Source: Jatrophihabitans telluris | GTDB lineage: Bacteria > Actinomycetota > Actinomycetes > Mycobacteriales > Jatrophihabitantaceae | Direction: 5' to 3' | Assembly (NCBI RefSeq): GCF_023516435.1 | Contig: NZ_CP097332.1 | Span: forward strand, 806,001 to 870,000 | Length of the DNA: 64,000 bases | Shown: one piece after another, positions 37,575-57,589 of the stretch | How the letters are laid out: each line of letters begins with the position of its first letter | Numbering within the stretch: position 1 is the first letter of the stretch | The notes under the pieces: generated by a model | Seen by the model: the letters and a program-made list of their open reading frames with translations, nothing else | What the model was told of the DNA's origin: nothing | Databases searched by the model: none | Program-made: the position numbers and the translations under genes

Positions 37575-37618
37575 GTGCCCCCGGCAGGACTTGAACCTGC
37601 GACGCCCGGCTTAGGAGT
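37575..37618. repeat. Left attachment repeat (tRNA-Arg 3' fragment)
   Basis: 44 bases identical to 57546-57589. On the minus strand it is the 3' part of tRNA-Arg(CCT) from the anticodon loop to the discriminator, without a 5' half, so it cannot be a functional tRNA. It is the chromosomal tRNA tail displaced by integration. Confidence 0.92.
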
Positions 37619-37868
37619 TCTTTCCCCTGCTGTCCGGCTACTTCCGGACCTGATGGCCAGGTGGGCCTAGCCCAGCAAATTCGGGCGGTTCGGTGCCGGA
37701 CTAGCACGGAACGTGACGGAACCGATTGGCGGAGGGAGAGATTGCTGTTGCCCCGACGTTGCCCAGAACGAGGGTGGTTTCCAGCCTTTGTGGACAATTC
37801 CCGGGTGGTGAACGATCCTGACAGAAGGCACGCATCCAGGCGGGTGCCGCCGTTGGTCGGAGGATCAG
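37619..37868. other. Non-coding left end of the element
   Basis: This 250-base stretch between the att repeat and the first lipoprotein gene contains an inverted repeat GTCCGG/CCGGAC at 37632-37649. I see no convincing gene. Integrase arm sites would be expected here but cannot be identified by eye. Confidence 0.5.
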
Positions 37869-38396
37869 ATGCGTTGTAGCGTTGCCGGCGGAGCAGCGCC
37901 CGCAGTTGTGCTCACGATCGCGCTGTCTGGCGCGCTTCTGTCGTCTTGTAGTGCGAAGCCTGCCGCCTCGTCGGATCAGGCGGCTGCCTCGACAAGCATG
38001 GTTTCGCTGCATGGCTGGGCCTTCTGGCCAGAGTCAATGCCACCTGACTTGTCCGCCTCCGATAGCAGGACCTTCCCGCTAGAGACGAGTCTTCCGTACG
38101 AGCCGACTGCGGCGCGCGGAGTCTGCTCTGAGCTGCTGCTGCGGGGTACGCCGCAGTTTGGCCAGGTAGTGGTTCAGGGCGCTAACGGCACCCTGCTGGG
38201 TGCAGGGACAGTGGACACGTCAGAAATACAGACCGCGCAGTCCGCTCAGCAAACCGGCGGCGACTTCATGTGCGCCGTTCGATGGTCTATGCCCCCGGTC
38301 GCTCGTCAGACGGCATACACCGTCGAGTTCAATGGCCACTCGGTAGTGGTAAACGGGTCGCAAGCGGCCAAGGAGATCGGGCTGCCCGCTACGTAG
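37869..38396 (+). CDS. Hypothetical lipoprotein
   Basis: 175 aa, ATG preceded by GGAGG at seven bases. A signal peptide ends in the lipobox LLSSC (C27), then a Ser/Ala-rich linker. The mature part has two more cysteines (RGVCSELLLRG and GGDFMCAVRW) that may pair. No family is recognised. It is the first gene at the left end of the element and probably exposed on the cell surface. Confidence 0.7.
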   Translation: MRCSVAGGAAPAVVLTIALSGALLSSCSAKPAASSDQAAASTSMVSLHGWAFWPESMPPDLSASDSRTFPLETSLPYEPTAARGVCSELLLRGTPQFGQVVVQGANGTLLGAGTVDTSEIQTAQSAQQTGGDFMCAVRWSMPPVARQTAYTVEFNGHSVVVNGSQAAKEIGLPAT

Positions 38397-38568
38397 CTGA
38401 CCGAGGTCCGGTGCGGTTGTAGGCCATACGAATGGCTCGCGACTACCGCTGGGCTCGGAGCCACTGCTCGTTACGAGACGCGTTCGCCTCTGGTGATCTG
38501 CGTGCGCGCACGCAATGATCTCTATGATCTTCCGGCAACCGGGCCAGGCAGGTCGATCGGGGGAGACT

Positions 38569-39183
38569 ATGCAGCGATTCGTGAACGTCCTGGTCCTGGC
38601 GGGAATTCTCTGCCTCACTAGCGCCGCTGTCGCGAGTGCGTCAGGAGCAACATCGGTCCTATTGGGTCAGAGCAACAGATCAGCGAGGGCCACCTCGCTC
38701 ATAAGTACAACAGGGATACCGCTTGGGCTGCACGCAGCTAGGGGGCACGCCCCACTATCCGTCAGCGGGAACAGGGTCAAGGTGGCAGACCTCAACGCTG
38801 ACTTTCTGGACGGTCTCGACTCTGCCGCTCTCCAACGTCGGGTCGTTGGCACGTGTGCGGTGGGTAGCTCAGTCGTCGCTGTCGCTGCCTCCGGCTCTGT
38901 CTCGTGTCGTCCGACGGCACTGACCTCGATGGTGGTCTCAGGCCAGGTCGACAACCTGGGCGGATCTGCCTTCTGCCCGTCTGGTTGGACGATGACGGGC
39001 GGAGGCTTCGAGCAACCGTTCGTCGCTGACGAGACCAAGCGTGATCTTCTCCGTGCCTCCCGGCCGGCAGCCGAGTTGACGGACTACAACGGATGGTTCG
39101 TAGTATTCGACCCCAGGGCGGCGAACAACTTTCAGCTGAACGGCCCGACAACCGTCTACGCGGTGTGCGTATTGAGCCGCTGA
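38569..39183 (+). CDS. Secreted hypothetical protein
   Basis: 204 aa from ATG 38569, with GGGGGAGA a few bases upstream. The signal peptide is about residues 1-24 (VLVLAGILCLTSAAVASA). The mature protein carries KVADLNADFLDGLDSAAL, a motif I associate with actinobacterial secreted and tail-fibre-like proteins, then a cysteine-containing beta-rich domain (GGSAFCPSGWTMTGGGFEQPF). It may be surface-exposed or a fibre-like adhesin. The function is unknown. Confidence 0.65.
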   Translation: MQRFVNVLVLAGILCLTSAAVASASGATSVLLGQSNRSARATSLISTTGIPLGLHAARGHAPLSVSGNRVKVADLNADFLDGLDSAALQRRVVGTCAVGSSVVAVAASGSVSCRPTALTSMVVSGQVDNLGGSAFCPSGWTMTGGGFEQPFVADETKRDLLRASRPAAELTDYNGWFVVFDPRAANNFQLNGPTTVYAVCVLSR

Positions 39184-39263
39184 GACCGACCACTACGCTG
39201 CTCGCCGCCGGAGCCCACGCGACTGGCGGACGCAAAGCGAATTCACGCTTCCGAGGGCAGGTC

Positions 39264-40130
39264 ATGGCGAACAAGTGGCGATGCCCGACCTGTGGGTCGG
39301 GCGGCAAGTCGAAAGAGCACGTCCTGCCTCAATGGATGTTCGCGCACTGGCAAAAGACGCCACACCGCGACGTCCCTCCACCGGTGAAGATATTTCTCTG
39401 CGTCGCCTGCAACTCGTATTTCAATGAAACGCTTGAGATTCCTTGCAGGCCGATCATCACCAGTTTGATGCAGGCCGACTCGGTGACACTCGACGTTACC
39501 GATCAGACGAATCTCGCCGCGTATTTCACGAAGCTGTCCCTTCTGATGGCCCTATGGCCGCACTACCCAGATGGAATGGACCCGTTCATCGGACTGACTG
39601 ACATGCGGACGTTCCGTCAGGGGCTAGTCCTGCCCGCCGGCACCCGGATCTGGCTCGGTTGCATCGAAGATGCGAACCTTCGACGTGAGCAGGCGGTTAT
39701 GAGGGCAATACCAGAGAGCTTCACCCGGGAGGCGCGGGAAAGCCAATGGCTCCTGCCGGCGGGTAGCAGCTGCCACCTGGCGAGCTTTGACCACTTGTTC
39801 GCAGTCCTATTCTGGATGCGAAGAGACCCGCTGAGAGGTGGTCAGCCCGCAATCGATGCGCGGGTCATGATCAGCAAGGCCGAAAGGGCGGGCCTCGTTC
39901 ACAGGATCTGGCCCAACAGAGGAACCCGTCTTGTCTGGCCACCACCGCTGGCGTTTGATGCAGCCACATACGCCCATTGGTCCAATCGGTTTGGCTACGT
40001 GCCTCCCGGCACAAGACCGAAGATCAACACTCCAAATGGCCTGCCCGACTGGGCGGCACGGTCGCTGGCCCACTGGGAAAGTCTCCCGACGAGTCGACTG
40101 GCTGCTGATCAAGCGGAGGATCATGGGTGA
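39264..40130 (+). CDS. HNH-like zinc-binding protein of unknown function
   Basis: 288 aa from ATG 39264. The N-terminal module has WRCPTCGSGGKSKEHVLPQWM, then FLCVACNSYFN, matching the CxxC...EHxxP...CxxCN arrangement of HNH-related folds. The remaining 220 residues have no recognised domain and include an aromatic-rich region (TKLSLLMALWPHYPDGMDPF). The catalytic pattern looks degenerate, so nuclease activity is only possible. It precedes the serine recombinase by 116 bases. Confidence 0.6.
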   Translation: MANKWRCPTCGSGGKSKEHVLPQWMFAHWQKTPHRDVPPPVKIFLCVACNSYFNETLEIPCRPIITSLMQADSVTLDVTDQTNLAAYFTKLSLLMALWPHYPDGMDPFIGLTDMRTFRQGLVLPAGTRIWLGCIEDANLRREQAVMRAIPESFTREARESQWLLPAGSSCHLASFDHLFAVLFWMRRDPLRGGQPAIDARVMISKAERAGLVHRIWPNRGTRLVWPPPLAFDAATYAHWSNRFGYVPPGTRPKINTPNGLPDWAARSLAHWESLPTSRLAADQAEDHG

Positions 40131-40246: not shown

Positions 40247-41404
40247 ATGGCGAACCTTGTGGCGTACCTGCGAGTCAGTTCGGCGATCCAAGCAGAGGGG
40301 TACGGCCTGGAGATTCAAAGGAATGCGATCGAGCGTCGGTGCGAGATCGACGGTCACCTCATCGGCCACATCCTTCAGGACGTGGCCGTGTCTGGCTCGC
40401 TGGAATCGGCGCAACGTCCAGCGCTGACCGACGCGCTCAACCTCATCCGCTCCGGGGCTGTTGACGGTTTGATCGTGGCACGGCTGGACCGGTTGGCGCG
40501 CGGTCTCACCATCCAGGAGGGTCTGCTTGCCGTGGTCTGGAACAACGGCGGATGTGTCTTCACCGCCGACGATGGCGAGGTCCTCCAAGACGACCCGTCT
40601 GACCCGATGCGGACGGCGATGCGGCAGATCGTCGGGGTATTCGCCCAGCTAGAGCGGGCGATGATCGTCAAGCGCATGTCCGACGGTCGGCGACGCCGAA
40701 TCGAGGTGAAAGGGCAATGGATAAGTGGCAGGGGATCGTTCGGCGAAGTGGCTCGCGGTGTACCAGACACCCGCGAACAACGCGTCATCGCGAGGGCAGC
40801 CGAGTTGCGGCGCGACGGCCTCACGTGGCGGGCAATCGCGCAAGAGTTCAACGCCGATCCCGAGCTACGTCCACGAACGGCCTCCTCGTGGACCGAGAAC
40901 AGCGCATCGCGAATGCTTGCCCCCAGCCGGGCCGCCCGAACACGGCCCGTGCCTGACTGGGCATCTCCGGTGGTTCAATGCATGAGTACCGATCAGGTTG
41001 CACACCGGCTACGGATCAGCCGCCCGTCGGTTTCGCACTTGCCACCGAGCTTCGTCGTGAGGGTTCCGGGCAGGTGGGCCAGCTACGACGCGGCTTCAGT
41101 CGAGCGGATCGTGGCTGAGTATGACCTGGACACGGTCTATGGGGCGGATTGGATCGGCCAGGGACGCGCCGAGCAGCTGAGCGGCTGCAGTCAGCGCCGG
41201 CTGGGTGTGCTGGTTGCCGAGGGACTGGTCGAAGTTCGGCAGGCGTTCAACGGCTATCGCCGATACAGGCTTGCCGACGTCACCAGCTTGCCGACGGCCG
41301 CGCGGGTGCGCGTCCGGCGACTTGGACAGCTCAACGTCTCCCACAGCGCTCAACGTCGGCGCTTGCCGACCTCAAGCGGTCTCACTGATCACGACCGCCT
41401 CTAG
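40247..41404 (+). CDS. Serine recombinase (resolvase/invertase family)
   Basis: 385 aa. The N-terminal catalytic domain reads NLVAYLRVSSAIQAEGYG with the nucleophile at S11 and LIVARLDRLARG with the conserved arginines. GVFAQLERAMIVKRMSDGRRRR is the long helix leading to the DNA-binding part. The C-terminus has HTH-like units (STDQVAHRLRISRPSVSHL) and a second excisionase-like segment (GCSQRRLGVLVAEGLVEVR). It is shorter than large serine integrases (450-700 aa), with an unusual tail. The target site is unknown. The 3' end overlaps the convergent 87-aa gene by 33 bases. Confidence 0.85.
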   Translation: MANLVAYLRVSSAIQAEGYGLEIQRNAIERRCEIDGHLIGHILQDVAVSGSLESAQRPALTDALNLIRSGAVDGLIVARLDRLARGLTIQEGLLAVVWNNGGCVFTADDGEVLQDDPSDPMRTAMRQIVGVFAQLERAMIVKRMSDGRRRRIEVKGQWISGRGSFGEVARGVPDTREQRVIARAAELRRDGLTWRAIAQEFNADPELRPRTASSWTENSASRMLAPSRAARTRPVPDWASPVVQCMSTDQVAHRLRISRPSVSHLPPSFVVRVPGRWASYDAASVERIVAEYDLDTVYGADWIGQGRAEQLSGCSQRRLGVLVAEGLVEVRQAFNGYRRYRLADVTSLPTAARVRVRRLGQLNVSHSAQRRRLPTSSGLTDHDRL

Positions 41405-41635: not shown

Positions 41636-41649
41636 GATTTATCGGGCTC

Positions 41650-41982: not shown

Positions 41983-42662
41983 CGTGTCCCCCTGATAGCC
42001 AGATCTAGCCGCGCACAGAAGTATCTCAGATTAGGTGTGGCTAGCTGGTGTGTGCCGGAATCGCCACGCAGGACGGCAGGGGGGGCACTTTGGCCGACCC
42101 CTCAACCCATCGCTTCCGATGCGCGATCTGCGCGTATTGTCGGTCGCCTCGTCGAAGGAGGCTCCGCGTCCGCACGAGCAGCGGCGGGCTGGACTGGCGC
42201 AGGCTTGCAACCATAGGGGAGACGCGCGGAACGCAGCGGCAATCCGTTGGCGGGAGACCTTCGCCTTGTGTGAGAGTCGCAGAGGTCATCGTCCGACGTC
42301 GAACGAGCCGCTTCACGCCTCAGTGCTTCGTGAACCTTGTCCGCTCATGCCGATCTGCGGATGGATCGGATGATCTTGGAAACCTCGCGATTCTGGCGGC
42401 GATCGGCGGCCATCCGCGCTGTCGTGCCGCGCGGCGACGTCGCCGGCCGACGCCACGGCGAGCGTGACCGCGCAGCGGGCGTCCCAGCCGCCAAGGATGA
42501 TCGCGGCATCGGCAGTCAGTTCATCCACACCAGCATGGTGTCAGGGCGCGTTCCGCAGCGCCGACGCGCAACTCGCTGCAGAGTCGGACGCTATCGAGCG
42601 CCCCGCAGACCTGTTTGGACGTTCACTTGAACTCACCCAACTCGGCAGATGAGTGCGTCTGG
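41983..42662. other. 680-base stretch without a convincing gene
   Basis: Several overlapping open frames exist in both directions but all are low-complexity, arginine-rich or lack start signals. One leftward frame (42313-42528) begins GTG with a sensible helix (DELTADAAIILGGWDA) but then degrades. It may hold decayed genes. Confidence 0.4.
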
Positions 42663-43470: not shown

Positions 43471-43664
43471 CGAGCAAGCATGCCAGATGAGGTGATCTGA
43501 GCCGGAACAGCCGTATGCGGTCTCTGGCAGCGAGGCCCGTGACGAACGCGCGGTCATCGGCATGAGCGGACGCGCGCTTCACGGAGCCATCCGGCTTGCA
43601 GGGGCTCAGACAAGACCGGACGCTTGCTCTAGCAGACCATGCCGAACACTCGACACCCCACCGT

Positions 43665-43693
43665 GGGTCAATTTGTTGCGGACGCCTCGTCGT
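43665..43693 (+). repeat. Dispersed repeat, copy 1
   Basis: About 28 bases starting GGGTCAATTTGTTGCGGACG. The core AATTTGTTGCG followed by ACGCCTCGTCGT recurs at 44302 and, inverted, at 45259. It lies 48 bases before the 43741 gene. Confidence 0.7.
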
Positions 43694-43740
43694 TCGTGCG
43701 GGCGCCATGCGCGGTCGTATGGTCATGACAGAATTGGGCG

Positions 43741-44148: not shown

Positions 44149-44817
44149 GCTGATGTCATGGCCCCGGCGTACGGCAAACCCTGCTCGGGCTGAGACCCCC
44201 TCCTGCGCCTGGCAGGCTGGAGATGGTAGGCCGCAACGCCGCCCACCCCACCGACAAACTTGGCCGCGAGCCTCAGCCGCAGCTTGAGCATTGGAACCGT
44301 AGGGCAATTTGTTGCGCACGCCTCGTCGTCACGTCGGGGACCATCCCCATGATGCGAGGTCTGAGGGGGACGAGCACGCGTGTGGGCACCTGAAATGTGG
44401 TTGCCGTCTCGGCGGCTGTCGTGATGGTTCTCAAGCCTGCACAGGGTCGGCCTCGGCGGCGAGCCCGCCACCCGACCGGCGCGCGGTCGCTATCCCCGGG
44501 CGAGCGCAGCCAGGCCGCGCTCGCGCTGCCGCAGACCGCACGGGTCACTCGACGCTGGAGCATGACCGCGCGGTCGACCTGCTCTACGATCTTGGGGCAA
44601 TGTGGGGGAGAGCGCAGCGTGTTCCTCGTGCGAAGCACTATCACGACCGGGGTCGGGTTGCCTGACGAGAACGGGTTCAGGTGCTTGCCATGCGGCCCAG
44701 AGCCGGATTGGCCTGACATGAAGTTCGCATGGACAGTCAGGGTGTCGTGAGAGTCGATTCCATCCGGCGGCAGGCCGGCCGGCGCGTGATCCTAAGTTTG
44801 AAGAAACGGCAGCCTAT
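44149..44817. other. 669-base stretch without a convincing gene
   Basis: It contains dispersed repeat copy 2. Open frames at 44397-44750 (plus) and 44273-44719 (minus) are arginine-rich and lack supported starts. I see no recognisable gene. Confidence 0.4.
44302..44329 (+). repeat. Dispersed repeat, copy 2
   Basis: About 28 bases starting GGGCAATTTGTTGCGCACGC, matching copy 1 (43665) and the inverted copy 3 (45259). Weaker similarity (G-rich block, then ACCA) continues for another 25 bases. Confidence 0.7.
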
Positions 44818-45102
44818 ATGGAGTCCAGACAAACGACGCTACTGCTGGGACTCTTGCTAGGTCCAGGCATGATCACAGTGGGCGTGCTCGGCGTGTTCAA
44901 CTTCAGAGGCTTTGCTGAAAAATACAATGACGCGGTCGGGTCATTTCGGCCGGGCGTCTTCAGGCGAAGATACAAAGATCCGGCCCAAGAGTTTAGGAAC
45001 GAGGTGCGCATAGCGCGGCTAAGCTTTCTCGTGTGCCTCATCTTTGGCCTATTCCTACTTTACGCCGGTATCGCAACGCTTCTAGGCGTAAACGTCAGTT
45101 AA
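44818..45102 (+). CDS. Small two-helix membrane protein
   Basis: 94 aa. Helix 1 (LLLGLLLGPGMITVGVLGVF) and helix 2 (LSFLVCLIFGLFLLYAGIATLL) flank a charged loop (FRPGVFRRRYKDPAQEFRNEVRIAR). No family is recognised. It is an orphan element gene with moderate coding quality. Confidence 0.6.
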   Translation: MESRQTTLLLGLLLGPGMITVGVLGVFNFRGFAEKYNDAVGSFRPGVFRRRYKDPAQEFRNEVRIARLSFLVCLIFGLFLLYAGIATLLGVNVS

Positions 45103-45525
45103 CAGCCCGGCGCGCCGCCTCGTCGGCCGACCGGCGCAACTGCGTCTTTGTGGGTACGCTTTTACATGGCCGTGTTTACGCCGTCGTCCCGCATCGCCGG
45201 CCTTGTACTCATCTGCGGTCGTCAGCGGGGGGCTCATGAGCTTGGTGCCCGCTTGGATGACGAGGGGTCCGCAACAAATTGCCCTACCTGTGTAAGCCAG
45301 TCCAGGTCCGAGGTACCCTCGCGGGGTTATGCGCCGCAGGAGCACGCCGGCCGTGGGGGAACGGTGCGAGAGCTCGCGGATAGCTGCAGCCGCTGCGTAC
45401 GAAGCGCGGCGGTAGTGGGTGGGCATGGCCGCTGGCGAGCGGGCAGACGTGCGGATCAGCCGGAGACGGGCCGCGATCTCCTCTACAGTGGCTCGAACTA
45501 CCCACTAGCGAAGTCGAGCCCTGAC
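45103..45525. other. 423-base stretch without a convincing gene
   Basis: It contains dispersed repeat copy 3 in inverted orientation. A 170-codon plus-strand frame crosses it, but only the last 44 codons (from 45526) look like a protein. No other gene is seen. Confidence 0.4.
45259..45284 (-). repeat. Dispersed repeat, copy 3 (inverted)
   Basis: The reverse complement begins GGGCAATTTGTTGCGGACCC and matches copies 1 and 2. The flanking GTA on its 5' side also matches copy 2. Confidence 0.7.
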
Positions 45526-45660
45526 ATGACCGGACCCACGCTGCACTTTGCGTCTTCACACCACGGGGGAGGGCTTCCCGTTCTAATCAGCTTTATCGTG
45601 TGCTGGGCTGTAGTCCTGACGGGCTGGTTCCTATTCGGCAGAAACCGCAGAGGTAAATGA
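45526..45660 (+). CDS. Tiny single-helix membrane protein
   Basis: 44 aa from ATG 45526, with one transmembrane helix (LPVLISFIVCWAVVLTGWFLF) and a basic C-terminus GRNRRGK. Its stop overlaps the next ATG as ATGA, so the two are translationally coupled. The function is unknown. Confidence 0.5.
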   Translation: MTGPTLHFASSHHGGGLPVLISFIVCWAVVLTGWFLFGRNRRGK

Positions 45661-45860
45661 CGATGGCTGGCGGACTCCTGCTCATCGGGCTCGGCATCGT
45701 CGTGGGTGCGGGCGGACTGACAATGTTGCTCCGACCGGAGGGACGTATGGCGCGGGCCAACAGCAAGACAGGAAGCGACCCGCGCATTCTTCGCTTCTTC
45801 ATGGCCGTGATCGGGCCAATTATGATCGTGACCGGCGTCGTGTCAGTCGTGACCAGCTAG
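45657..45860 (+). CDS. Small two-helix membrane protein
   Basis: 67 aa with AGAGGT just before the ATG. Helices are GGLLLIGLGIVVGAGGLTMLL and FFMAVIGPIMIVTGVVSVV, joined by a polar loop. It is coupled to the 44-aa gene upstream by a four-base overlap. Together they may form a small membrane pair, but no family is recognised. Confidence 0.55.
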   Translation: MTMAGGLLLIGLGIVVGAGGLTMLLRPEGRMARANSKTGSDPRILRFFMAVIGPIMIVTGVVSVVTS

Positions 45861-45968
45861 GAGCCCTCGCATGTGGGCTACCCGTCCTGGTCGCCGAACG
45901 CATCCCTTGCTTGGACAGCCGGCCGATATGCGAGACCCCGCATCAGTCGACCGGCGTGTTCGGTATGA

Positions 45969-46307
45969 CTACACCCCTGCTGCCACCGGATCATCGCTCG
46001 CGTCGGCCGCCGTCCATCGGTGTGTTCGTGAAAGGCGGACGAGTGCGCCTCCGAACACCCAAGCCGTCCGCACACCCCAGAGCGGCACTACGCACCAGAA
46101 GACATCGCGACGACGAGCTCCCGCAAGTGGTGCCACGAGGGCCAGCAGCGCGAGGGGGACGGCCACGGCGAGTATGGCGAGCGCCTTGGCAGGAAGGGTT
46201 GGGTTTTCGCTCAGCGTCGGCAGTAGGGCAAGTGGGGTCAAGAACGCGATCGCTAGGGTCGCACTGCCCAAGCGTTCGCCCCACACGCCCCAGGTACTCG
46301 ACTTCAT
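45969..46307 (-). CDS. Hypothetical membrane protein
   Basis: 112 aa. Hydrophobic helices are LGSATLAIAFLTPLALLP, AKALAILAVAVPLALLALVAPL and FWCVVPLWGVRTAWVFGGAL; the C-terminus is polar. No family is recognised. It probably belongs to the cargo of orphan membrane proteins between the two serine recombinases. Confidence 0.55.
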   Translation of the reverse strand: MKSSTWGVWGERLGSATLAIAFLTPLALLPTLSENPTLPAKALAILAVAVPLALLALVAPLAGARRRDVFWCVVPLWGVRTAWVFGGALVRLSRTHRWTAADASDDPVAAGV

Positions 46308-46346
46308 ACGCGAACTTTACCCGCATTGAACGCCGGAACACCAGCC

Positions 46347-46511
46347 GTGACTCAGCAGTGCGTGAGCCGTCCCGCGCGGCGCTGGGCCGGGGGGACGACG
46401 CTCAAGCTGGTGTTCCTCCCAGCGACCGGCTATCTCCTCATCATCAGCCTGTTGCGGATGAACTACGACCGCAAGCGCCGATCAGCGCGCGTGCGCGATT
46501 CGAGGGGGTAG
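46347..46511 (+). CDS. Possible small membrane protein
   Basis: 54 aa from GTG 46347 (a TTG at 46326 would be longer). One helix, LKLVFLPATGYLLIISLLRM, is followed by a basic tail DRKRRSARVRDSRG, the positive-inside pattern of a small inner-membrane protein. The ribosome-binding site is weak, so it may not be translated. Confidence 0.35.
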   Translation: MTQQCVSRPARRWAGGTTLKLVFLPATGYLLIISLLRMNYDRKRRSARVRDSRG

Positions 46512-48871: not shown

Positions 48872-50050
48872 CTAGGCGAAGCTCAGCTGTACGTTGCCCT
48901 CGATCCAGTAGGCGTTACCACGTTTCGTGAAGGTGCCTGTGACGGTAACCGGGTTTCGACCTCGGTGGGCCTGTATTGCGCGGTTATATGCCGCCCCAGC
49001 CAGGGCGACCTTCGCACTCCGCCCGGATTGCGTATCGACGAGCCCTTTCACGGTTACAACGCCCCCTGCGTCATCCTCCCCTCGTTCCAATCTCGTGACC
49101 TGGCCGTAGATTGTCTGCTCCGCTGGAGCGGGCGGCTTTCGTCGAAGTCGTTCGTTGAGCTGCCGCAACTCCGGCATCACGTTCCGGTCGATCGCGACAC
49201 GTTCCACTCCAGGTCGTGCGGTCTGCTCGGCCTTCGCCCACTCAAATGACATGTCGAGGGCTCGAAGGCCTTCGAAGTCCGCAGTCATGGTCTGCAGCGC
49301 ATCGACCATGTTCGCGCTCAGGCCTTCGTGGATTGCTTGGTCCAGCGTCAGAGAACCCGACGCCATGGCGATTTCTCTGGCAGCGTGAACCCCTGATGCC
49401 AGGGTCGCCATTGCCCTCCGCTGAAACGGAGGTATCACCGTCTCCTGCTGGCTCGCTGCGGATACCGACGCCTCGTCATCTACTTCTTCGAGCAGGTAAT
49501 CTTCTTCGTCCAGCCGGACGACCTCGTCCGCTCCGAGACGAGCGAGAATGGTAATGATAAAGCTGCCTCTTTGCGTATGTCCCATGCGAACGTCATTCTC
49601 TACAAAGTCTCTCGCTTGATCTGGCCGTCGGCCCACGTGGGCGCTTTGCGGCCGCAGGGTGGACGTGGCCGCAGCCAGGAGCAGAGCGTCAGCTCCGGCG
49701 AGCATTCGTTCGGCTTGTCGTATCGGAATGCTTCCATCAAGGGTTGTTTGATCAGCGCGGAGGAAAAGAATGTCCGAACGCACGCTGACGATCTGTAATG
49801 CCAGTTGTTCGGCGTCCCAGTCGTTCAAGCGGCTCAGATAGATCAATACTTCATCAAATCGACGCGCAAAATCTCCGAATGAGGTTTCGAGGGGCAGGCG
49901 AATTCGATCCGATGGAATTTCAGGATTCTGCCAATACTGCGAAACGCCGTCTTCGAGAGCCAACGTCCACCCAGAAGCACCCAAATACGTGGCTACCGCA
50001 TGCGGAGATATGTTCAGGTCATCCGGCACGGATCGAAGAAATGTACTCAC
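48872..50050 (-). CDS. Unknown 392-aa protein coupled to the DUF4365 gene
   Basis: No family is recognised. The first 100 residues have an alpha/beta pattern with SFGDFARRFDEVLIYLSRL. The middle (about 110-300) is mostly helical with acidic patches (DEEDYLLEEVDDEAS). The last 80 residues (TIYGQVTRLERGEDDAGGVVTVKGLVD, then VTVTGTFTKRGNAYWIEGNVQLSF) have an OB-fold-like strand pattern. It starts with GTG overlapping the DUF4365 stop as GTGA, so the two are produced together. A four-repeat structured region lies downstream. Base composition is lower in GC than the chromosome. Confidence 0.7.
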   Translation of the reverse strand: MSTFLRSVPDDLNISPHAVATYLGASGWTLALEDGVSQYWQNPEIPSDRIRLPLETSFGDFARRFDEVLIYLSRLNDWDAEQLALQIVSVRSDILFLRADQTTLDGSIPIRQAERMLAGADALLLAAATSTLRPQSAHVGRRPDQARDFVENDVRMGHTQRGSFIITILARLGADEVVRLDEEDYLLEEVDDEASVSAASQQETVIPPFQRRAMATLASGVHAAREIAMASGSLTLDQAIHEGLSANMVDALQTMTADFEGLRALDMSFEWAKAEQTARPGVERVAIDRNVMPELRQLNERLRRKPPAPAEQTIYGQVTRLERGEDDAGGVVTVKGLVDTQSGRSAKVALAGAAYNRAIQAHRGRNPVTVTGTFTKRGNAYWIEGNVQLSFA

Positions 50051-50601
50051 GGCATTTTGCCATTTCCGATTCTGGATAGGATGCCAAGCAGTTGTTCGAC
50101 GTCGAAGCGTTGAGCTTTGGGGATGTGCAGCGTCGTGGATTGATTAGGATCGGTCAGCGCAGGCTCGCCATGCAGCGACATCCAGTATGCACTCTTGTGT
50201 AGGATTAAGCGATCGTCATCTTGAATCAGCCAATCTTCGAGGTTAGTTGGAACCACCATTACCACAAGAATGATCTTTTCGTAACGGCGCGTATCTCGTA
50301 ACTTGTCGAAGTACTTCTTCTCGATCGAGAATGCGACGTGATCGTCTTTTACGACATCCTGCGATGTGCACTTGAGTTGCACATCGACTTGAGCTGAGCT
50401 GAAAACATAATGGTTGGCCGTCTGACGGATTGATGCATCCACAGTCTGGTAGTCAACGTCGATCTGTTCGTAGGAGCAGCGCGCCGCCGTTACGACTGCG
50501 CGCATGTAGGCGATGCTGAGCTGCTGTTGACACTCGGTGTCGAACAGACTCCCGTAGGGAGTTCCTGAGCTGTGATGTGTCGGAAACCGCGATTTCGGCA
50601 C
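50047..50601 (-). CDS. DUF4365 domain protein (nuclease-fold-like)
   Basis: 184 aa from GTG 50601. The pattern QLSIAYMRAVVTAARCSYEQIDVDYQTVDASI, VDVQLKCTS, AFSIEKKYFDKLRDTRRYEKIILVVMVVP, EDWLIQDDDRLILHKSAYWMSL matches DUF4365. The acidic D55 followed by QLK at 75-77 is the spacing of a PD-(D/E)XK nuclease core, so a DNA-cleaving or DNA-binding role is possible (inference). The gene is AT-richer than its neighbours, a sign of transfer. It is coupled to the 392-aa gene. Confidence 0.75.
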   Translation of the reverse strand: MPKSRFPTHHSSGTPYGSLFDTECQQQLSIAYMRAVVTAARCSYEQIDVDYQTVDASIRQTANHYVFSSAQVDVQLKCTSQDVVKDDHVAFSIEKKYFDKLRDTRRYEKIILVVMVVPTNLEDWLIQDDDRLILHKSAYWMSLHGEPALTDPNQSTTLHIPKAQRFDVEQLLGILSRIGNGKMP

Positions 50602-50673: not shown

Positions 50674-51654
50674 TCAGCAAACAGGTCTGTCAACGTCTGT
50701 TGCTGAACGATCGAAGGCTGCGCGGTTCTTCCTGATCAGGTCACTCACTGTCCGGTGCCTCGCCGGGGAGTCAAGGGCGGCTTCGACTCGTGCGCGCATG
50801 CCCTCGTCCTCCCTCCCCTGCTTTCCGCCCAGTAGGGCCTCAGCTAGGCGGTTGTGGTCCAACTGAACGTCGACCCCCTGCTCGCGTGCCAACACACCCA
50901 GGATGCATGCCTTCTCGGCTGACGCCTTCCGCGTGGAGCGGCTAACCCCGCGCCCACTATCGTCGGCAGCTTCCGAGACGAGGGTTAGTCGATCTACCTT
51001 AACGGACCGCCTGGAGGCAGGTGCGTTGTTGCCATACGTCTGAAGCGCAAGTCGGAGAATGCGGTCTCCATCATGCTCGACACACGATACTCGGATTGTG
51101 TGTCTGTACGCGCCCCGATACACCTGTGCGCCCGACGGCCCTTTGGATGCACGCGCCTCGTGATGGACGACGATTACGGGGATCGGCAACTGCCGAACGG
51201 ACTGTGTGAAGACTCCGGCTAGCCCCTGTTCGTTCGTGTCCGTTACGACGGCACCCAGGCTGTCGATGATGAGCATCCCAAACTGCCCCTCGCTTACTAG
51301 ACGAGGGAGCCATGCCGGCTTCCATTCGTGAAGGAGCACTGGATGAACGCGCGGCTCATCTGCGAAGGTCCGCCGGACATCCCGGAAACTTGTGTAGTCC
51401 TCGCATCCGAACAGGATGCGCTTGTCGTCGTCGAAGTGTGTCGGCTCGCCCAGCCATTCGCCCGCGAGCAGTCCCTTCACCATCGACTTCAGGAGGGTCG
51501 TCTTGCCCATCTCCGGCTGAGCGGTCAACGCGGTCAAACCTGGGTGGATGAAACCAGGGATGGGCCACGCAGGGTCGTCAGACCCGTCGTCCTCGGGCAC
51601 GGTTGCAAAACCCTCCACCAGTTCGGCCAACGTCTCTCGGTCTAGTCGTTGCAT
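50674..51654 (-). CDS. RecA-fold ATPase (RepA/AAA_25-like)
   Basis: 326 aa. PGLTALTAQPEMGKTTLLKSMVKGLLAGEW carries a Walker A motif in which the first glycine is replaced (AQPEMGKT, residues 45-52). Walker B is FGMLIIDSLGAVV with D131, and VIVVHHEARASKG follows as motif 3. This resembles plasmid RepA-type hexameric helicases and other AAA_25 proteins. The C-terminal 90 residues look like a DNA-binding helical domain (LDHNRLAEALLGGK). It is the third gene of a leftward operon, eight bases after the degenerate ATPase gene. Confidence 0.85.
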   Translation of the reverse strand: MQRLDRETLAELVEGFATVPEDDGSDDPAWPIPGFIHPGLTALTAQPEMGKTTLLKSMVKGLLAGEWLGEPTHFDDDKRILFGCEDYTSFRDVRRTFADEPRVHPVLLHEWKPAWLPRLVSEGQFGMLIIDSLGAVVTDTNEQGLAGVFTQSVRQLPIPVIVVHHEARASKGPSGAQVYRGAYRHTIRVSCVEHDGDRILRLALQTYGNNAPASRRSVKVDRLTLVSEAADDSGRGVSRSTRKASAEKACILGVLAREQGVDVQLDHNRLAEALLGGKQGREDEGMRARVEAALDSPARHRTVSDLIRKNRAAFDRSATDVDRPVC

Positions 51655-51662
51655 ATCGGCGC

Positions 51663-52538
51663 TCAGAACGGTGGCTCGTCGCTGAACCGATCAGCGTGAA
51701 CTTCCAGCGCTCGCTGGATTTCCTCGACCGACCTCTGGCCGACGATCGCTTCCACCTCCGATGGTGCGAACTTGACGAGGTTGAAGGCGGTCTGGGGCAG
51801 TACCTCGGTCTTCGTTAGACGAGCGGCGACAATCGCGAGCTGAGCAACTTGCTCGGAACTGATCGACAATGACGACCTGTCAGGCATTGCCAGACCGCAC
51901 TCGATGGTTACCTTCGTCTGGTCTGGCTGAACGATGGTCAAGCCGGTCCTCTCGTCGTACTTCACCCAAACGGTCGCGTCGGCGTACTCAGGGGCGGTGT
52001 TCTGGGTCTTGACACCTGGACCGGTTTGGAAGCTCTGGTAGGTGGCAATGACCGGGACAGCCGTGTCCCGCAGCCAACCATCGACGAGGAAGCCGTCCGG
52101 TGCCGGCGATCCCAGAAGCATCATGGCGCTGTCGACGATGAGGAGGTCAGCCCCGACGCTGGTGACGGCGTCTGCCAATCCCTCCCAGCATGCGATTGCC
52201 CTAGCCTTCAAGATCGTGACGTCCTCACCGAACGACGACCGCCACGCTCCGGCCCGCTGTCGGTCTACGACGACGAGCGGACGCGTCACCAGGAAGGACG
52301 CGTCCCACTGATTCAGCAGCGAACTCTGGGTCATCAGGCAGTCGAGCGTCTGGGCGGCAAGCGCGGTCGCATCGCTTGGACGAACGGCAGTAACGGCGTT
52401 GATGCCTGCGGCGAACAGGCCGTCAATGAGCGACGGGAGTGTGCCACCATCCCAATCGACAGGCAGCGCCTCAAACTGGGGGTGCTTCAGGATGAAGTCG
52501 CCAACTGGCTCCGACTTCGCGTCGGTCTTGGTCGTCAC
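51663..52538 (-). CDS. Degenerate RecA-like ATPase paralogue
   Basis: 291 aa. The layout parallels the following ATPase gene: a glycine-poor segment AVRPSDATALAAQTL where Walker A should be (no GK[ST]), then ADLLIVDSAMMLLGS as Walker B (D136) and VPVIATYQSFQTGPG as motif 3. It is therefore probably unable to hydrolyse ATP on its own. It may form a mixed ring or regulatory subunit with the active-looking neighbour. The GTG start overlaps the preceding stop as GTGA. Confidence 0.65.
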   Translation of the reverse strand: MTTKTDAKSEPVGDFILKHPQFEALPVDWDGGTLPSLIDGLFAAGINAVTAVRPSDATALAAQTLDCLMTQSSLLNQWDASFLVTRPLVVVDRQRAGAWRSSFGEDVTILKARAIACWEGLADAVTSVGADLLIVDSAMMLLGSPAPDGFLVDGWLRDTAVPVIATYQSFQTGPGVKTQNTAPEYADATVWVKYDERTGLTIVQPDQTKVTIECGLAMPDRSSLSISSEQVAQLAIVAARLTKTEVLPQTAFNLVKFAPSEVEAIVGQRSVEEIQRALEVHADRFSDEPPF

Positions 52539-53344
52539 TGGGCAGTCCTTACGGGAGAGGTAGGTGCGACGTCGGCCGGCGCGCTGGAGGCCCCTCCAGG
52601 AGCCTGTGAGCTACCGAGGCCCCGCGCCCACGCGGTCGGGTGTGAATCGATGGCAGAGATCAGCAAGTCGACGGAGAGCCCGTCGTCCCAGATGCTTGCG
52701 AGGTCCGTGTAGCTGGTGAGGATGAGCTGCCCTACGACGTGCCGAGCGGCGAACCGAGCGAGGCCCTTTCTGGCGGCAAGCCGGCCTGTCCGCTCTACCT
52801 TGCTGCTGTGCGGGCCGACGGATGGTGTCTGCTGGCGGACGATGACCGTCTCGGTGTCTACGAATCGCTTCTCGACGCGTGATGAATCGTTGTGAAGCTC
52901 TCCGGTCCGCCCGTTACTACCGTCCAGCCTGCTTCGCCCTGACGGCTCTCCAGGGCCAGCAAGGTGGGCGGCCTTCGCCGCCGGTGCGGCAAGGTTTTCG
53001 TTGCCGGGGATGAGGGTGTAGCCAATGTATCCGAGTTGGCGAGACAGGAAATCGATCCGCCCGGCGGCAGTCTGGTAGCTGGGACCACGGACAGCGCGCC
53101 GGCCTTGCATCTGGTCCACCAGGAGGGCGGAGCTGGAGAACACGTCGAGTTGGTAGTACCCACCCGCTAAGGCGGAGAGGATGCCCTCTTCGAGGGCTCG
53201 ATACTCAGCGAGACCCGGAAAGCTGCTCCCACGGTGGTAGCGGCTGTGCTCGCCGATCACCGTTCCGTCGTCCGACAAGACGTAGGCATAGCCGGCTGAT
53301 TGGTCATGGACGGTCCGATGCCCGGAGATGTGGAGCGAAGTCAC
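52535..53344 (-). CDS. RNase H-like protein with degenerate active site
   Basis: 269 aa from GTG 53344, preceded by a strong AGGAGG. The first 130 residues follow the RNase HI fold: GYAYVLSDDGTVIGEHSRYHRG, FPGLAEYRALEEGILSAL with the conserved glutamate E47, and YYQLDVFSSSALLVDQMQG, where SSS replaces the usual SDS and removes one catalytic aspartate. The final N-x-x-A-D pattern reads NLAAPAAKAA, also without aspartate. It is probably a nucleic-acid-binding rather than a cleaving module. The rest is unrecognised. It heads the ATPase operon. Confidence 0.65.
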   Translation of the reverse strand: MTSLHISGHRTVHDQSAGYAYVLSDDGTVIGEHSRYHRGSSFPGLAEYRALEEGILSALAGGYYQLDVFSSSALLVDQMQGRRAVRGPSYQTAAGRIDFLSRQLGYIGYTLIPGNENLAAPAAKAAHLAGPGEPSGRSRLDGSNGRTGELHNDSSRVEKRFVDTETVIVRQQTPSVGPHSSKVERTGRLAARKGLARFAARHVVGQLILTSYTDLASIWDDGLSVDLLISAIDSHPTAWARGLGSSQAPGGASSAPADVAPTSPVRTAQ

Positions 53345-53634: not shown

Positions 53635-53643
53635 GTCGCCCTC

Positions 53644-54933
53644 CTACGCCGCAGTGATGAGGAGCTTCAGCTTCAGCGCTGACCAGTCGGTCACGGCTGA
53701 GACATCGGTCCACGGGAAGGTGAGGGTGGCGACGTTCGACACCGACGACCCAGAGCCACCAGGGATCGACGTCGACAGGATCGTCGATCGAGTGGTCGAG
53801 CCCTCAATCAAGTAGGCGTTGAAGCTGCCGGAGGCAGCGCTGAGGGTGTCGATGTTGATGAGAATCCGGAGCGGGTTGCCGGTGGTCGGGGGCACCAGAG
53901 CCCCGAGCACCACCGTCAGTTCCTGGTTGGTCGGGCCGGCAGGGCTGGTGATGAGCGTCGTCTGGTCGGTGTCCTGCAGACACGACAGCACTGTCCCGCT
54001 ACTGGCGGTCCAACCTGTGGCGACAGACGTGCTAGCCGGGACGACCGTGTAGGAAGCACCAGCCACAGTCACTGAGTGGGTGACGGTGGACGACGTTGAA
54101 CCGGTCGAGTCGGTGACGTACAGCGCGACGCTGTAGGTGCCACCGGTTGCGTAGGTGTGGGATGGTCCCGACCCGCTACCGGAGGACGAATCCCCGAAGT
54201 CCCAGGTGTAGCTGGAGACGGTCGCAGGAGAGGTAGCGGTGGAGGCAGTGGCGTCGAACGCCACCGTCAGTGCGGTTGGTGTGCTGCTGAACGCAGCCAC
54301 GGGAGGGACCGGCACCGGTCCAATCAGCGATGCACTGGAGTCCACCAGCCTGACGTCGTCAACCCAGAACGGCGTGGTGTAGGTGCCGTTGTTAGGGCGG
54401 CCGAATACGCCGTAGTTGATAATCGTGCCAGCGGAAACGGAAATCGTGCCGGAGTCACCACCGGTGACCGGCGTTGTCGAGTCACCGAGGTAGTAAACGA
54501 GCTGCGCGGTGTTGGCACCGAGGTCGAGACGCATCTCGATTCGCACCCACTGGTTAAGCGGGAGCGCTGAAGCGGCGGTCCACTTCGTACCGGTCGTGTC
54601 CTGAAGGCGCAGAGCGCCGGCGGAATTCAGCTTCCCGATCAGGTCAGTAGAGTTGCCCGCTCCGCCGAACTTGAACAGCCACTCGTCGTCGCTGGTGATG
54701 GTGGAGAAGTAAAAGTAGCCCCGGATCGCCGCAGTTGTGGTGTTGAGGGTGTTTACGTAGACGGAAGAGGCGATTCCCGACGCAGGAACGAGCTTGGCGC
54801 TTTGCACGCCATGCGCGGCACGGGTGTTGTCATAGGTGATAGCAGCCCCACTGCCAGGGATGACGGTCCATCCGCTGGCAGATACCGACGAGCCGTTAGT
54901 CCCGCCTTCGAAGTCGAGGGTGTAGGTGGTCAC
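53644..54933 (-). CDS. LamG-like plus PKD domain protein (phage structural type)
   Basis: 429 aa from GTG 54933, with CAGGAGG upstream. Residues about 1-200 form a concanavalin-like LamG domain (TLDFEGGTNGSSVSASGWTVI, WVRIEMRLDLGANTAQLVYYLG, PFWVDDVRLVD). Residues about 210-290 form a PKD domain (VAAFSSTPTALTVAFDATAS, YTWDFGDSSSG). The end is another beta-rich module. It has no signal peptide, unlike secreted PKD proteins, which suggests a phage tail or fibre-like protein. Its start overlaps the upstream HTH stop as GTGA. Confidence 0.75.
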   Translation of the reverse strand: MTTYTLDFEGGTNGSSVSASGWTVIPGSGAAITYDNTRAAHGVQSAKLVPASGIASSVYVNTLNTTTAAIRGYFYFSTITSDDEWLFKFGGAGNSTDLIGKLNSAGALRLQDTTGTKWTAASALPLNQWVRIEMRLDLGANTAQLVYYLGDSTTPVTGGDSGTISVSAGTIINYGVFGRPNNGTYTTPFWVDDVRLVDSSASLIGPVPVPPVAAFSSTPTALTVAFDATASTATSPATVSSYTWDFGDSSSGSGSGPSHTYATGGTYSVALYVTDSTGSTSSTVTHSVTVAGASYTVVPASTSVATGWTASSGTVLSCLQDTDQTTLITSPAGPTNQELTVVLGALVPPTTGNPLRILINIDTLSAASGSFNAYLIEGSTTRSTILSTSIPGGSGSSVSNVATLTFPWTDVSAVTDWSALKLKLLITAA

Positions 54934-55184
54934 TTCGCAGCCTCCTGAGCTGTGATCCAGTCGGTGAGCGCTGATTCGCGGATGACGAGCTTGCGCTTGC
55001 CGAGCTTGAAGAACGGGGGAGCCGAGCCGGTTTTCCGCATCGCTCGGAGTGCCTCGTCCGAGTGACCGATCCGCCGAGCTGTCTCGGCGAAGGTCAGCAG
55101 TCGCTCTGAAGGAGCGCCTCCTTCAGCGGGTGTTGGTGATTCGTGCTGGGCCTGCGTGGCCGTCAGCGCATGACGAGATGGCAT
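54930..55184 (-). CDS. Excisionase/AlpA-like HTH protein
   Basis: 84 aa from ATG 55184. The C-terminal half is a MerR-like HTH: LLTFAETARRIGHSDEALRAMRKTGSAPPFFKLGKRKLVIRESALTDWI. The first 25 residues are polar and probably disordered. Such proteins regulate or assist excision of integrated elements. It is the second of two related HTH genes and is coupled to the LamG/PKD gene by a four-base overlap. Confidence 0.8.
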   Translation of the reverse strand: MPSRHALTATQAQHESPTPAEGGAPSERLLTFAETARRIGHSDEALRAMRKTGSAPPFFKLGKRKLVIRESALTDWITAQEAAK

Positions 55185-55500: not shown

Positions 55501-55698
55501 CTAGCCGGGCTGACCACCTCGCTTTGTGGCGTCGACCTGCTCGCGGATCCACGACTCAAGGTCGGACTGCCGGTACATCACGTGCCGGCCGAGCACGAAG
55601 CTCGTCGGTCCCAGGTTCTTTGCTCGCCACCAGCGCAGCGTCTTTGGGCTGCTTCGTAGGTAGTCAGCCGCCTCGTTCAGTGTCTTCAGTTCACCCAT
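55501..55698 (-). CDS. AlpA-like HTH protein (excisionase candidate)
   Basis: 65 aa from ATG 55698, with GAGGG six bases upstream. The whole protein is a MerR-like HTH: LKTLNEAADYLRSSPKTLRWWRAKNLGPTSFVLGRHVMYRQSDLESWI. This is the classic small excision-factor size. It is divergent from the 185-aa gene and the integrase, with a promoter between them, so it may set the balance between integration and excision. Confidence 0.88.
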   Translation of the reverse strand: MGELKTLNEAADYLRSSPKTLRWWRAKNLGPTSFVLGRHVMYRQSDLESWIREQVDATKRGGQPG

Positions 55699-55755
55699 GT
55701 TGGCCCTCTCGGTCCGACGCCCTGTCAGCATCGTCTGAAACTAGTGTACGTATGA

Positions 55756-55784: not shown

Positions 55785-55819
55785 GATTGTGACAGTTCTG
55801 TGACCAGGAAGGGGATACC

Positions 55820-56377
55820 TTGAAGTTCGAGTTGGTACGAGGTCCGGACGTGGCTGACGACGGCGACGCGACACTCATATTCGAAAGCGGCAAGGAGTGG
55901 CGCGTGACCGTGACGCGCAACCTAAATGCGCCGATCGGCGGTCCGGAGAAGCTCGTCATCGAAGCAGTGGATGGGAGCGAGGGTGGCAAGGGAAACGGTG
56001 GCTACGACACGGAGGGCATCCAGACGACACACTTGCGAGCGGTTCCGATAGCAGAGGCGCGCCGATTGTTGGAAGGGGTGCTGATCCAGCGCCAAGCTCA
56101 GTCCGTCATAGAGCGGCTTCCCGAGGACTTTGAGGGTGAGTACGCCTACGCCGCGCTGGCGTCGGCAATCGTGACGCTGACGGGCTGGAATGTCACCAAT
56201 GCCGTCGCAGCCATCGCCAGGGCGAAGGCTGGCCTCACTGAAACGCAGAGCCTAGATCGCAAGACCCGGGATCTCTGGTCTACACGGGCGAAACGAGCGC
56301 GTACGTACGGCTTCCTTGCCGACCTGGATGGGCAGCCCGTTCTGACGGCCAAGGCCAGCGCGGCTCTCGGCGGATAG
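55820..56377 (+). CDS. Hypothetical protein preceding the integrase
   Basis: 185 aa from TTG 55820, with GGAAGGGGAT upstream. The N-terminal half is beta-rich (KFELVRGPDVADDGDATLIFES, EWRVTVTRNL), and the C-terminal half is helical (EDFEGEYAYAALASAIVTLTGW, RAKAGLTETQSLDRKTRDLWS). No family is recognised. It is 11 bases before the integrase start on the same strand, so both share the promoter at 55756. Confidence 0.65.
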   Translation: MKFELVRGPDVADDGDATLIFESGKEWRVTVTRNLNAPIGGPEKLVIEAVDGSEGGKGNGGYDTEGIQTTHLRAVPIAEARRLLEGVLIQRQAQSVIERLPEDFEGEYAYAALASAIVTLTGWNVTNAVAAIARAKAGLTETQSLDRKTRDLWSTRAKRARTYGFLADLDGQPVLTAKASAALGG

Positions 56378-56388
56378 GGAGCGAGGAC

Positions 56389-57528
56389 ATGGCCAGCATT
56401 CAGAAGCGGACGAGGGACGGCAAGGTCACGTGGCGTGCCCACTACCGCACGCCGGATGGCATTCAGCGGAACAGGAGTTTCTCCCTTCGGCGAGAGGCCG
56501 AACGCTTCATCACCGAAGTCGAGGGGGCAAAGCTCGCCGGTACCTACATAGAGAAAGACCGGTCTGCGGTCAGGGTCGCGGAGTGGGTGGAGCGCTGGCT
56601 TGAGAGCCAGGCTCAGCTAAAGCCATCAACCCGAGAGAGGTACGCGGGCATCCTGCGAACCCACGTCACTCCGAAGTGGGGCAACTACCGTCTGCGCGAC
56701 GTTTCGCACGCGGACATCCAGGGTTGGGTAAGCGAGGTGGCTCAGTCTCGGTCGGCCTCAACCGCGACCAAAGCTCACCGCGTCCTGTCACTAGCGCTAG
56801 GACTCGCCGTCCGTGACGGACGGCTACCAAGGAACCCAGCGGACAGCGTCCAGCTTCCGAGGATCGTGGCGAGGGATCGCCGGTACCTCACGCACGCCGA
56901 GGTTGAGCGCTTGGCGGCTGCCGCCGACGAGTACGGACCTCTCATCCTGTTCCTGGCCTACACGGGCGCCAGATTTGGCGAGGCTGCCGCCCTCCGGGTG
57001 AGTCGTCTGGATCTGCTGCGACGGCGGGTCGAGATCGCAGAGTCCGCGACCTCCGTGAACGGGAGGATCGTCTGGGGTACTCCGAAGGGTCATCAACGGC
57101 GGTCGATTGCCTACCCTCGGTTCCTCGTTGACGATCTCGCGGCGCTTGCTGCAGGCAAGCAGCCGGGCGACCTAGTCTTCGTCTCACCGCGTGGAGACGT
57201 TCTGAGGTCGTCGAACTTCCGTAGAGACGTGTTTGAACCAGCGGCCTACGCTGCCGGACTCTCGGGCCTCACTCCCCACGGCCTACGCCACACGGCTGCC
57301 TCGCTCGCCATCGCGTCCGGTGCGGACGTCAAAGTCGTCCAGCAGATGATGGGCCACAAGTCGGCGACCATGACCCTCGATCTTTACGGCCACCTGTTCA
57401 CCGATCGGCTGGATGAGGTCGCGGACCGGATGGACAAAGCTCGCGCTGACGCTGCTGTTGCCCGCCCGTTGCCCGAGGGGACGGTCGTGGACCTTCAATC
57501 CGTCCGCAATGCGGCTGAAGGCCAGTAA
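56389..57528 (+). CDS. int: Tyrosine-type site-specific integrase
   Basis: 379 aa. An Arm-type N-terminal domain (ASIQKRTRDGKVTWRAHYRTPDG) precedes a core-binding SAM-like domain (about 60-150) and the catalytic domain. The catalytic set is complete: R195 in YTGARFGE, K233, H297 and R300 in HGLRHTAAS, H323 in MMGHKS and the nucleophile Y333 in DLYGHLF. It lies 17 bases from the tRNA gene and the 44-bp att core, which is the standard layout for integration into the tRNA 3' end. Confidence 0.96.
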   Translation: MASIQKRTRDGKVTWRAHYRTPDGIQRNRSFSLRREAERFITEVEGAKLAGTYIEKDRSAVRVAEWVERWLESQAQLKPSTRERYAGILRTHVTPKWGNYRLRDVSHADIQGWVSEVAQSRSASTATKAHRVLSLALGLAVRDGRLPRNPADSVQLPRIVARDRRYLTHAEVERLAAAADEYGPLILFLAYTGARFGEAAALRVSRLDLLRRRVEIAESATSVNGRIVWGTPKGHQRRSIAYPRFLVDDLAALAAGKQPGDLVFVSPRGDVLRSSNFRRDVFEPAAYAAGLSGLTPHGLRHTAASLAIASGADVKVVQQMMGHKSATMTLDLYGHLFTDRLDEVADRMDKARADAAVARPLPEGTVVDLQSVRNAAEGQ

Positions 57529-57545
57529 AGATGGACCTTGTAGGA

Positions 57546-57589
57546 GTGCCCCCGGCAGGACTTGAACCTGCGACGCCCGGCTTAGGAGT
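57546..57589. repeat. Right attachment repeat within tRNA-Arg
   Basis: 44 bases identical to 37575-37618. It spans the anticodon loop to the 3' end of the tRNA gene, so the element restores an intact tRNA at this side. Confidence 0.92.

Follow-up and report, generated by a model that had tools for sequence, protein, structure and literature searches.

A tRNA-Arg-integrated 20-kb element of Jatrophihabitans telluris, possibly a helper-dependent, phage-satellite-like island

The model of phage-inducible chromosomal minimalist islands (PICMIs) includes PF12728 (HTH_17) among its AlpA profiles and PF00589 among its integrase profiles (PMC10803314). In actinobacteria, the satellites found in the literature searched comprise Streptomyces satellite-helper systems, which carry capsid genes and few replication genes (PMC10690885), and candidate phage-inducible chromosomal islands (PICIs) of Mycobacterium, integrated phage-related islands that are proposed to be satellites and whose definition combines an integrase with a major capsid gene (PMC10654092); no paper on satellites and actinobacteria combined all of the search terms. 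In actinomycete integrative and conjugative elements (AICEs), the 3' end of a tRNA gene is accompanied by a tyrosine integrase and a likely excisionase (PMC3218068). In the current study, we describe a 20-kb element, inserted in a tRNA-Arg gene, within a 64,000-nucleotide stretch of the J. telluris chromosome (NZ_CP097332.1, positions 806,001 to 870,000; "the window", whose coordinates are used below unless genome positions are specified).

The element resembles PICMIs and other AlpA-type satellites (PMC10803314, PMC6092414) in its tyrosine integrase, HTH_17 regulator and replication-type ATPase without capsid or terminase genes, but differs in having no DUF3987/DUF5906 primase match, in carrying a candidate defence pair, a virion-like protein and serine recombinases on 20 kb, and in having no known helper phage. 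The integrase and AlpA-like regulator expected of a satellite are both present; the AAA_25 ATPase stands alone, however, with no primase domain in the Pfam scans, and the element is for that reason not filed as a PICMI. It is like the Mycobacterium candidate PICIs in being an integrated, phage-related actinobacterial island and unlike them in that no capsid gene was found (PMC10654092), so that it differs from both actinobacterial groups, the Streptomyces systems included (PMC10690885); it shares the integrase-excisionase arrangement of AICEs but shows no RepAM, Prim-pol or FtsK-type Tra match (PMC3218068). We tentatively favour, at somewhat less than even probability, the reading that it is a non-autonomous, helper-dependent, phage-satellite-like integrative island; it most resembles a hitchhiker dependent on viruses, rather than an entirely new type of element.

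Boundaries and insertion module

That a 20-kb element is integrated in a tRNA-Arg gene, as the original prediction proposed, is well supported. A perfect 44-bp direct repeat links the left attachment (att) site (37575–37618, plus strand), a displaced copy of the 3' part of the tRNA, to the right att site (57546–57589, plus strand), which forms the last 44 bases, at the 3' end, of an intact tRNA-Arg(CCT) gene (57546–57619, minus strand; ARAGORN and the Rfam tRNA model), the sole tRNA that ARAGORN detects in the window. Two matches to 43 bases of the repeat, with up to 3 mismatches allowed, occurred in 0 of 100 shuffled windows, and the 44 bp are present at just these two places in the 4.19-Mb genome (E <= 0.001), the next-best match (84%, at genome position 1,596,746) being another tRNA-like one. 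The start-to-start spacing of the repeats gives an integrated unit of 19,971 bp, whose halves have G+C contents of 0.632 and 0.616, compared with 0.674 and 0.671 in the flanks. The predicted tyrosine integrase (379 aa; 56389–57528, plus strand; Pfam Phage_integrase, 4.7e-23) does adjoin the intact tRNA, ending 17 bases from it, and contains HGLRH and LDLYGH, which we take to be its tyrosine integrase motifs. The locus thus has the direct att repeat, the copy within an intact tRNA and the adjoining integrase of a tRNA-integrated element. A second island bounded by a tRNA-Ala repeat was considered and rejected, as no distant copy of at least 18 bases was found.

Beside the integrase lie a 185-aa gene with no family match passing the cut-off (55820–56377, plus strand) and the two AlpA-like helix-turn-helix (HTH) genes that had been predicted, namely a Xis/AlpA-like HTH_17 protein (55501–55731, minus strand; 3.5e-11) and a second HTH_17 protein of about 84 aa (54930–55184, minus strand; start chosen by us; 6.9e-7). 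Across the order, relatives of the integrase (E <= 1e-60) were detected in 82 of 397 genomes, that of the host among them. Among the best 29 loci (L060–L088), whose neighbourhoods were scanned, ARAGORN placed a tRNA at 24; three had tRNA-Arg(CCT) (G144, with an integrase 61% identical, G361 and G089), and the rest had tRNA-Arg(CCG), tRNA-Lys or tRNA-Met. At 16 of these 29 loci, a relative of a window HTH protein was encoded close by (gene calls; blastp E <= 1e-3). Because integrase relatives are common in the order and an HTH relative is often nearby, the insertion module of the element is ordinary for this group.

Eight congeners were compared with the host genome (G000), three of them (G001, G003, G005) less than 90% complete, and none of the eight carries the element's ATPase. 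tRNA-Arg(CCT) was found in six (G002, G003, G004, G006, G007, G008); it is accompanied in G006 by a related integrase that the end of the contig truncates (80% over 41 aa) and in G004 by an integrase remnant (76% over 33 aa), while tblastn (E <= 1e-3) found no integrase in stretches of 11–20 kb in the other four. Since G000 has, about 17 kb from its tRNA, genes in the order in which G004 and G006 have them about 3 kb from the tRNA 5' end (gene lists), the congener tRNA seems positionally equivalent to that of the window, but the immediate flanks differ and a like-for-like empty site was not found in these six. In G001 (L048), two att-like matches of 43–46 bp (3484–3529 and 4578–4623) lie 1.1 kb apart without a recognised tRNA and are perhaps old att remnants.

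Gene content of the right half

The right half of the element (48–57.6 kb) is densely coding (0.826 by gene caller, versus 0.573 in the left half) and reads, on the minus strand and from the integrase onward, as two HTH_17 genes, a PKD-domain protein, an RNase-H-fold protein, a 291-aa protein, an AAA_25 ATPase, a DUF4365 protein and a 392-aa protein. Profile scans covered 30 open reading frames (ORFs) with Pfam and 10 with PHROGs, in a region (35–60.5 kb) with 155 mechanically listed ORFs. Over this subset of frames, no relaxase, FtsK, terminase or capsid was matched, in agreement with the reported lack of relaxase, terminase and capsid genes.

A trio of RecA-fold ATPases had been proposed for this block, of which one member stands, an AAA_25 ATPase with Walker motifs (326 aa; 50674–51654, minus strand; 1.5e-7, and an alignment of relatives), likened by us, from its family, to RepA helicase. 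The trio as such was rejected: the 291-aa protein (51663–52538, minus strand) is a degenerate AAA_25-type paralogue that has lost Walker A, and the third (269 aa; 52535–53344, minus strand) is an RNase-H-fold protein without detectable likeness to the ATPase. The paralogue status of the 291-aa protein is derived from a profile comparison, in which it aligned to the ATPase family over 132 columns but had other residues in place of the Walker-A GKT (hhalign E 3.5e-5, probability 72%), and from the scores of the ATPase relatives against it (z 3.8–5.2 for five of six, L037 reaching just 2.0), and not from the pairwise shuffle test with the window ATPase, which was not significant (z 1.3; 55 of 500 shuffles equally good). 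Its single-sequence structure model (first residue omitted) was useless, with a mean predicted local distance difference test score (pLDDT) of 34.8. A homologue search across the 397 genomes returned one other match (G278, 70 residues at 36%), which falls in a region called as an unlike 131-aa protein and was judged to be chance; the dead paralogue has been met in the window element only.

The AAA_25 ATPase has relatives in seven of 396 other genomes (G328, G208, G089, G103, G263, G183, G213), and the six that were aligned all have the Walker-A GK and further invariant residues. Against PHROGs, the window protein matched just one unknown family (0.017); three relatives were scanned too, the G328 and G208 proteins matching primase and primase/helicase families (6.6e-9 to 9.7e-6) and the G103 protein unknown families alone. 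Neighbourhoods were resolved in four of the seven genomes (G328, G208, G089, G103): in two, the relative lies within 7 kb of phage structural genes (a tape measure gene in G328; major head and minor tail genes in G208), and in the other two a tyrosine integrase located at a tRNA lies within 2.5 kb of it (tRNA-Arg(CCT) in G089, tRNA-Asn in G103). The G208 region (L036, 7450–14775), with a major-head-like and a minor-tail-like gene near the relative, may be a small prophage or a capsid-carrying satellite. The G089 locus (L041, 1–6710) resembles the element in its integrase (49% identical), HTH gene, AAA_25-like ATPase and tRNA-Arg(CCT), but its ATPase is longer, no RNase H partner is called beside it, and it carries a 589-aa protein without an assigned role.

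The 269-aa protein, which has a C-terminal extension, is related to RNase HI (Pfam RVT_3, 3.9e-7; PDB 3hst, 4.3e-6), but three of the four residues to which we assign catalytic roles are missing: relative to the proteins of G071, G177 and G186, the conserved glutamate is kept, other residues stand in place of the first aspartate and the DS aspartate, and the position of the last aspartate is gapped. Matches at E <= 0.001 occur in 342 of 397 genomes of the order, as is expected of a housekeeping RNase H. Among the matches listed, those of G071, G177, G186, G126, G257 and G379 reach the C-terminal part; the G177 and G186 matches are proteins of 358 and 365 aa, presumably of the two-domain Rv2228c type. 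G071, from another genus of the same family, encodes an RNase H in which all four residues are retained and whose C-terminal part is similar (27% over 224 aa, E 2.6e-9), beside a relative of the HTH protein (47% over 58 aa, E 3.6e-14), and its contig ends in 45 residues matching the start of the ATPase (41% over 32 aa; E 0.06, weak alone), probably a fragment of the same ATPase. Order and strand of the three agree with the element at this contig edge (L142, 1–1533), although no PKD gene separates HTH and RNase H and the contig end cuts the region. The ORF that does lie between them in G071 we read as zinc-finger-like; the module adjoins ordinary chromosomal genes, and no integrase was found on the 17.5-kb contig. 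An RNase H gene behind an HTH gene, with the ATPase probable, has therefore been seen twice, in the window and in G071. The synteny seen beyond the host is partial, comprising the HTH, RNase H and probable ATPase order in G071 and the integrase with ATPase in G089.

The predicted virion-like protein was borne out. This 429-aa protein (53644–54933, minus strand), whose start codon overlaps the stop of the preceding HTH_17 gene, comprises an N-terminal part that we call LamG-like, a PKD domain (PKD_4, 4e-17) and a beta-rich-looking C-terminus. Residues 1–176 (1–144 in two records) match seven Microbacterium phage records from six phages (32–34%, E 5e-9 to 5e-7), and in phage Lifes the matched gene, annotated as a hydrolase, sits between the major capsid and tail genes. 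Likeness to these phage proteins and the position of the Lifes gene among structural genes support a virion origin for the 429-aa protein, though they do not thereby indicate its function. The N-terminus was found in none of 248 other genomes; the PKD query gave local matches at four IMG/VR loci (30–47%).

The distal end of the block holds a feature that the original prediction had not included. A DUF4365 protein (50047–50601, minus strand; DUF4365, 3.7e-18; PADLOC PDC-M02A, 2.2e-62) is adjacent to a 392-aa protein (48872–50050, minus strand; PDC-M02B, 3.5e-120), and the neighbouring M02A and M02B genes that define PDC-M02 are thus both present at 48872–50601, with strong profile matches and no difference seen from the PADLOC-DB entry. 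We regard the pair as a candidate phage defence system, catalogued as such in PADLOC; no paper naming PDC-M02 was found in the literature searched. With gene 2 of the Mycobacterium abscessus prophage prophi102-2, and of a second prophage record, the B protein shares 32% identity over 96%, and gene 1 of prophi102-2, which overlaps gene 2, has the size of a DUF4365 protein. DUF4365 domains have also been reported together with short Argonautes. Downstream lies a small, weakly HIRAN-like protein (48111–48638, minus strand; HIRAN E 0.018, under the cut-off; PADLOC PDC-M03B, E 0.0041). Weak PADLOC matches to mad8 (6.4e-4, 27 residues round the ATPase Walker A) and DrmC (0.056) were not adopted.

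Left half and clustered repeats

The left half (37.6–48 kb) contains two serine recombinases, small ORFs without families and chromosomal fragments. Both extra serine recombinases of the original prediction have Resolvase matches: a 385-aa protein with a longer C-terminus (40247–41404, plus strand; 1.4e-25; phrog_95, 4.2e-37) and a small invertase/resolvase-type protein (46761–47348, minus strand, start from the gene caller; 7.1e-38; phrog_125, 9.2e-61). A 288-aa protein with a Cys pair near its N-terminus (39264–40130, plus strand) matched no family over the cut-off. Several pieces of 50–150 bp at 44447–46376 are 85–90% identical to genome 940.6–941.1 kb; they match within and behind a gene there that we take to be an ABC-F ATPase.

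Between the two recombinase genes, which is the sole tie of the repeats to these enzymes, lie three copies of a clustered repeat absent from the original prediction, at 43666, 44302 and 45284 (spans 43660–43708 and 44296–44352, plus strand; 45211–45287, minus strand). The family has 14 genome copies (E <= 0.001), of which 10 occur at 897.3–917.8 kb and one at 1.347 Mb, the latter beside a gene that fragment 42313–42528 of the window resembles (protein lists). The 20-kb array at genome positions 897319–917782 (L099, L100), about 34 kb beyond the element, holds its 10 copies on the same strand between small genes, at a coding density (0.536) like that of the left half and unlike that of the chromosome (0.84–0.91). 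Ungapped column identity among the 14 copies is 0.72–0.94 per 10-base bin from −10 to +39 and 0.41–0.63 outside; conservation is highest in a core of about 35 bp (−6 to +28), which begins abruptly on its left side, and left and right arms are paired differently among copies. No full copy was found in the 60 further genomes searched within the order (where a single 26-bp match, in G047, was taken as chance), the exact 21-base core pattern had 0 hits in the GTDB collection, from which the host genome itself may be left out, and no Rfam family matched. An integron reading of the repeats was rejected: no IntI in the genome exceeded the TIGR02249 cut-off (eight sub-threshold matches, best 76.7 bits versus 265), there was no Rfam family, and folding of 13 copies on both strands (170 nt; no attC model run) resembled shuffles (z −2.57 to +1.09) bar the copy at 92134, the only one below −1.3 (−2.57, −1.69). 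We entertain, as very improbable, the idea that the left half and the 897–918 kb array form one gene-cassette system without an integron integrase, in which the sharply one-sided 35-bp core would separate small unrelated genes and a serine recombinase of the element would move cassettes between array and island. Were the repeats true recombination sites, this would be a separate and larger finding.

A satellite-like island and its alternatives

The favoured reading of the element as a helper-dependent, satellite-like island draws on the att sites, tRNA and integrase, on ATPase relatives near phage genes or integrases, on the phage-like N-terminus of the PKD protein, on the gene order of G071, on the PDC-M02 pair, whose B gene has a prophage homologue, and on the HTH_17 and integrase profiles shared with the PICMI model. 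The anatomy behind it consists of att sites, an integrase, a dense HTH-led block and a defence pair catalogued as a candidate, and neither packaging nor conjugation genes were detected. Beyond this anatomy, we infer a life cycle in which the integrase would recombine the 44-bp tRNA-Arg sites, the Xis/AlpA-like HTH proteins would, judging by their family, switch on excision, and the minus-strand block at 55731–48872 would supply a replication-like module of AAA_25 ATPase, RNase-H-fold partner and dead paralogue, the last perhaps a regulatory subunit. The virion-like protein could decorate or retarget a helper phage particle, and the two-gene candidate defence system may shield the host cell or act in competition with other phages. 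Because no packaging, capsid or conjugation gene was found, transfer would take place in helper-phage particles, and the left half may be a decaying cargo zone.

Several observations count against this reading. Genes for a primase, a small terminase or capsid remodelling were not found (cos and pac sites lay outside the search), and the RNase H and one ATPase look dead from their residues. The ATPase had no match in phages, plasmids or IMG/VR, and the RNase-H protein none in phages or plasmids; nor did scans of IMG/VR, which pick up close relatives only, match the 291-aa protein, the 392-aa protein or the integrase. Pairings of an integrase and an HTH protein like this one are also seen beside AICE-like replication genes, and the argument is built on the sequence of a single element. 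An AICE remnant or mobilisable derivative, which kept the integrase-xis module and lost or replaced its rep and tra genes, is the alternative to be weighed here; the HTH relatives near 16 of the 29 integrase loci speak for it, but no FtsK/SpoIIIE (PF01580), Prim-pol or DUF3631 match was obtained in the 30 ORFs (the RepSA profile of the authors of PMC3218068 was not scanned), and the element has a virion-like protein and a replication-like module of another kind; we consider this origin unlikely, if plausible.

A decayed prophage, stripped of head, tail and packaging genes but retaining integrase, replication genes and one virion gene, would account for the virion-like protein, for the ATPase relatives near phage structural genes in two of seven genomes and for the poorly coding left half. 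However, the right half is tightly packed with overlapping genes, and where a prophage should show terminase, capsid and tail genes, the ORFs scanned yielded the single virion-like protein and no terminase, portal, capsid or tape measure fragment, which makes this origin distinctly unlikely in our estimation. An immobile cargo and defence island, whose integrase and att sites persist although it no longer moves, fits the degenerate RNase H and ATPase paralogue and the chromosomal fragments of the left half; set against perfect 44-bp att sites and an integrase frame that is open with its motifs, we hold it to be more improbable still. The choice offered by the original prediction, a phage satellite or a mobilisable element, agrees with the genes carried, but it is not one that sequence can decide. 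Its description of the element as an unrecognised type holds for the whole combination, met here alone, but less so for the parts: the integrase is common (three of the 29 loci at tRNA-Arg(CCT)), the ATPase recurs in the seven other genomes, and the defence pair is catalogued.

If the satellite-like reading is true, the element would be a lead to phage satellites, in an actinobacterial group that has been little studied, which lack capsid genes and carry a replication module based on the pairing of RNase H and ATPase, a virion-like gene of their own and a candidate defence system.

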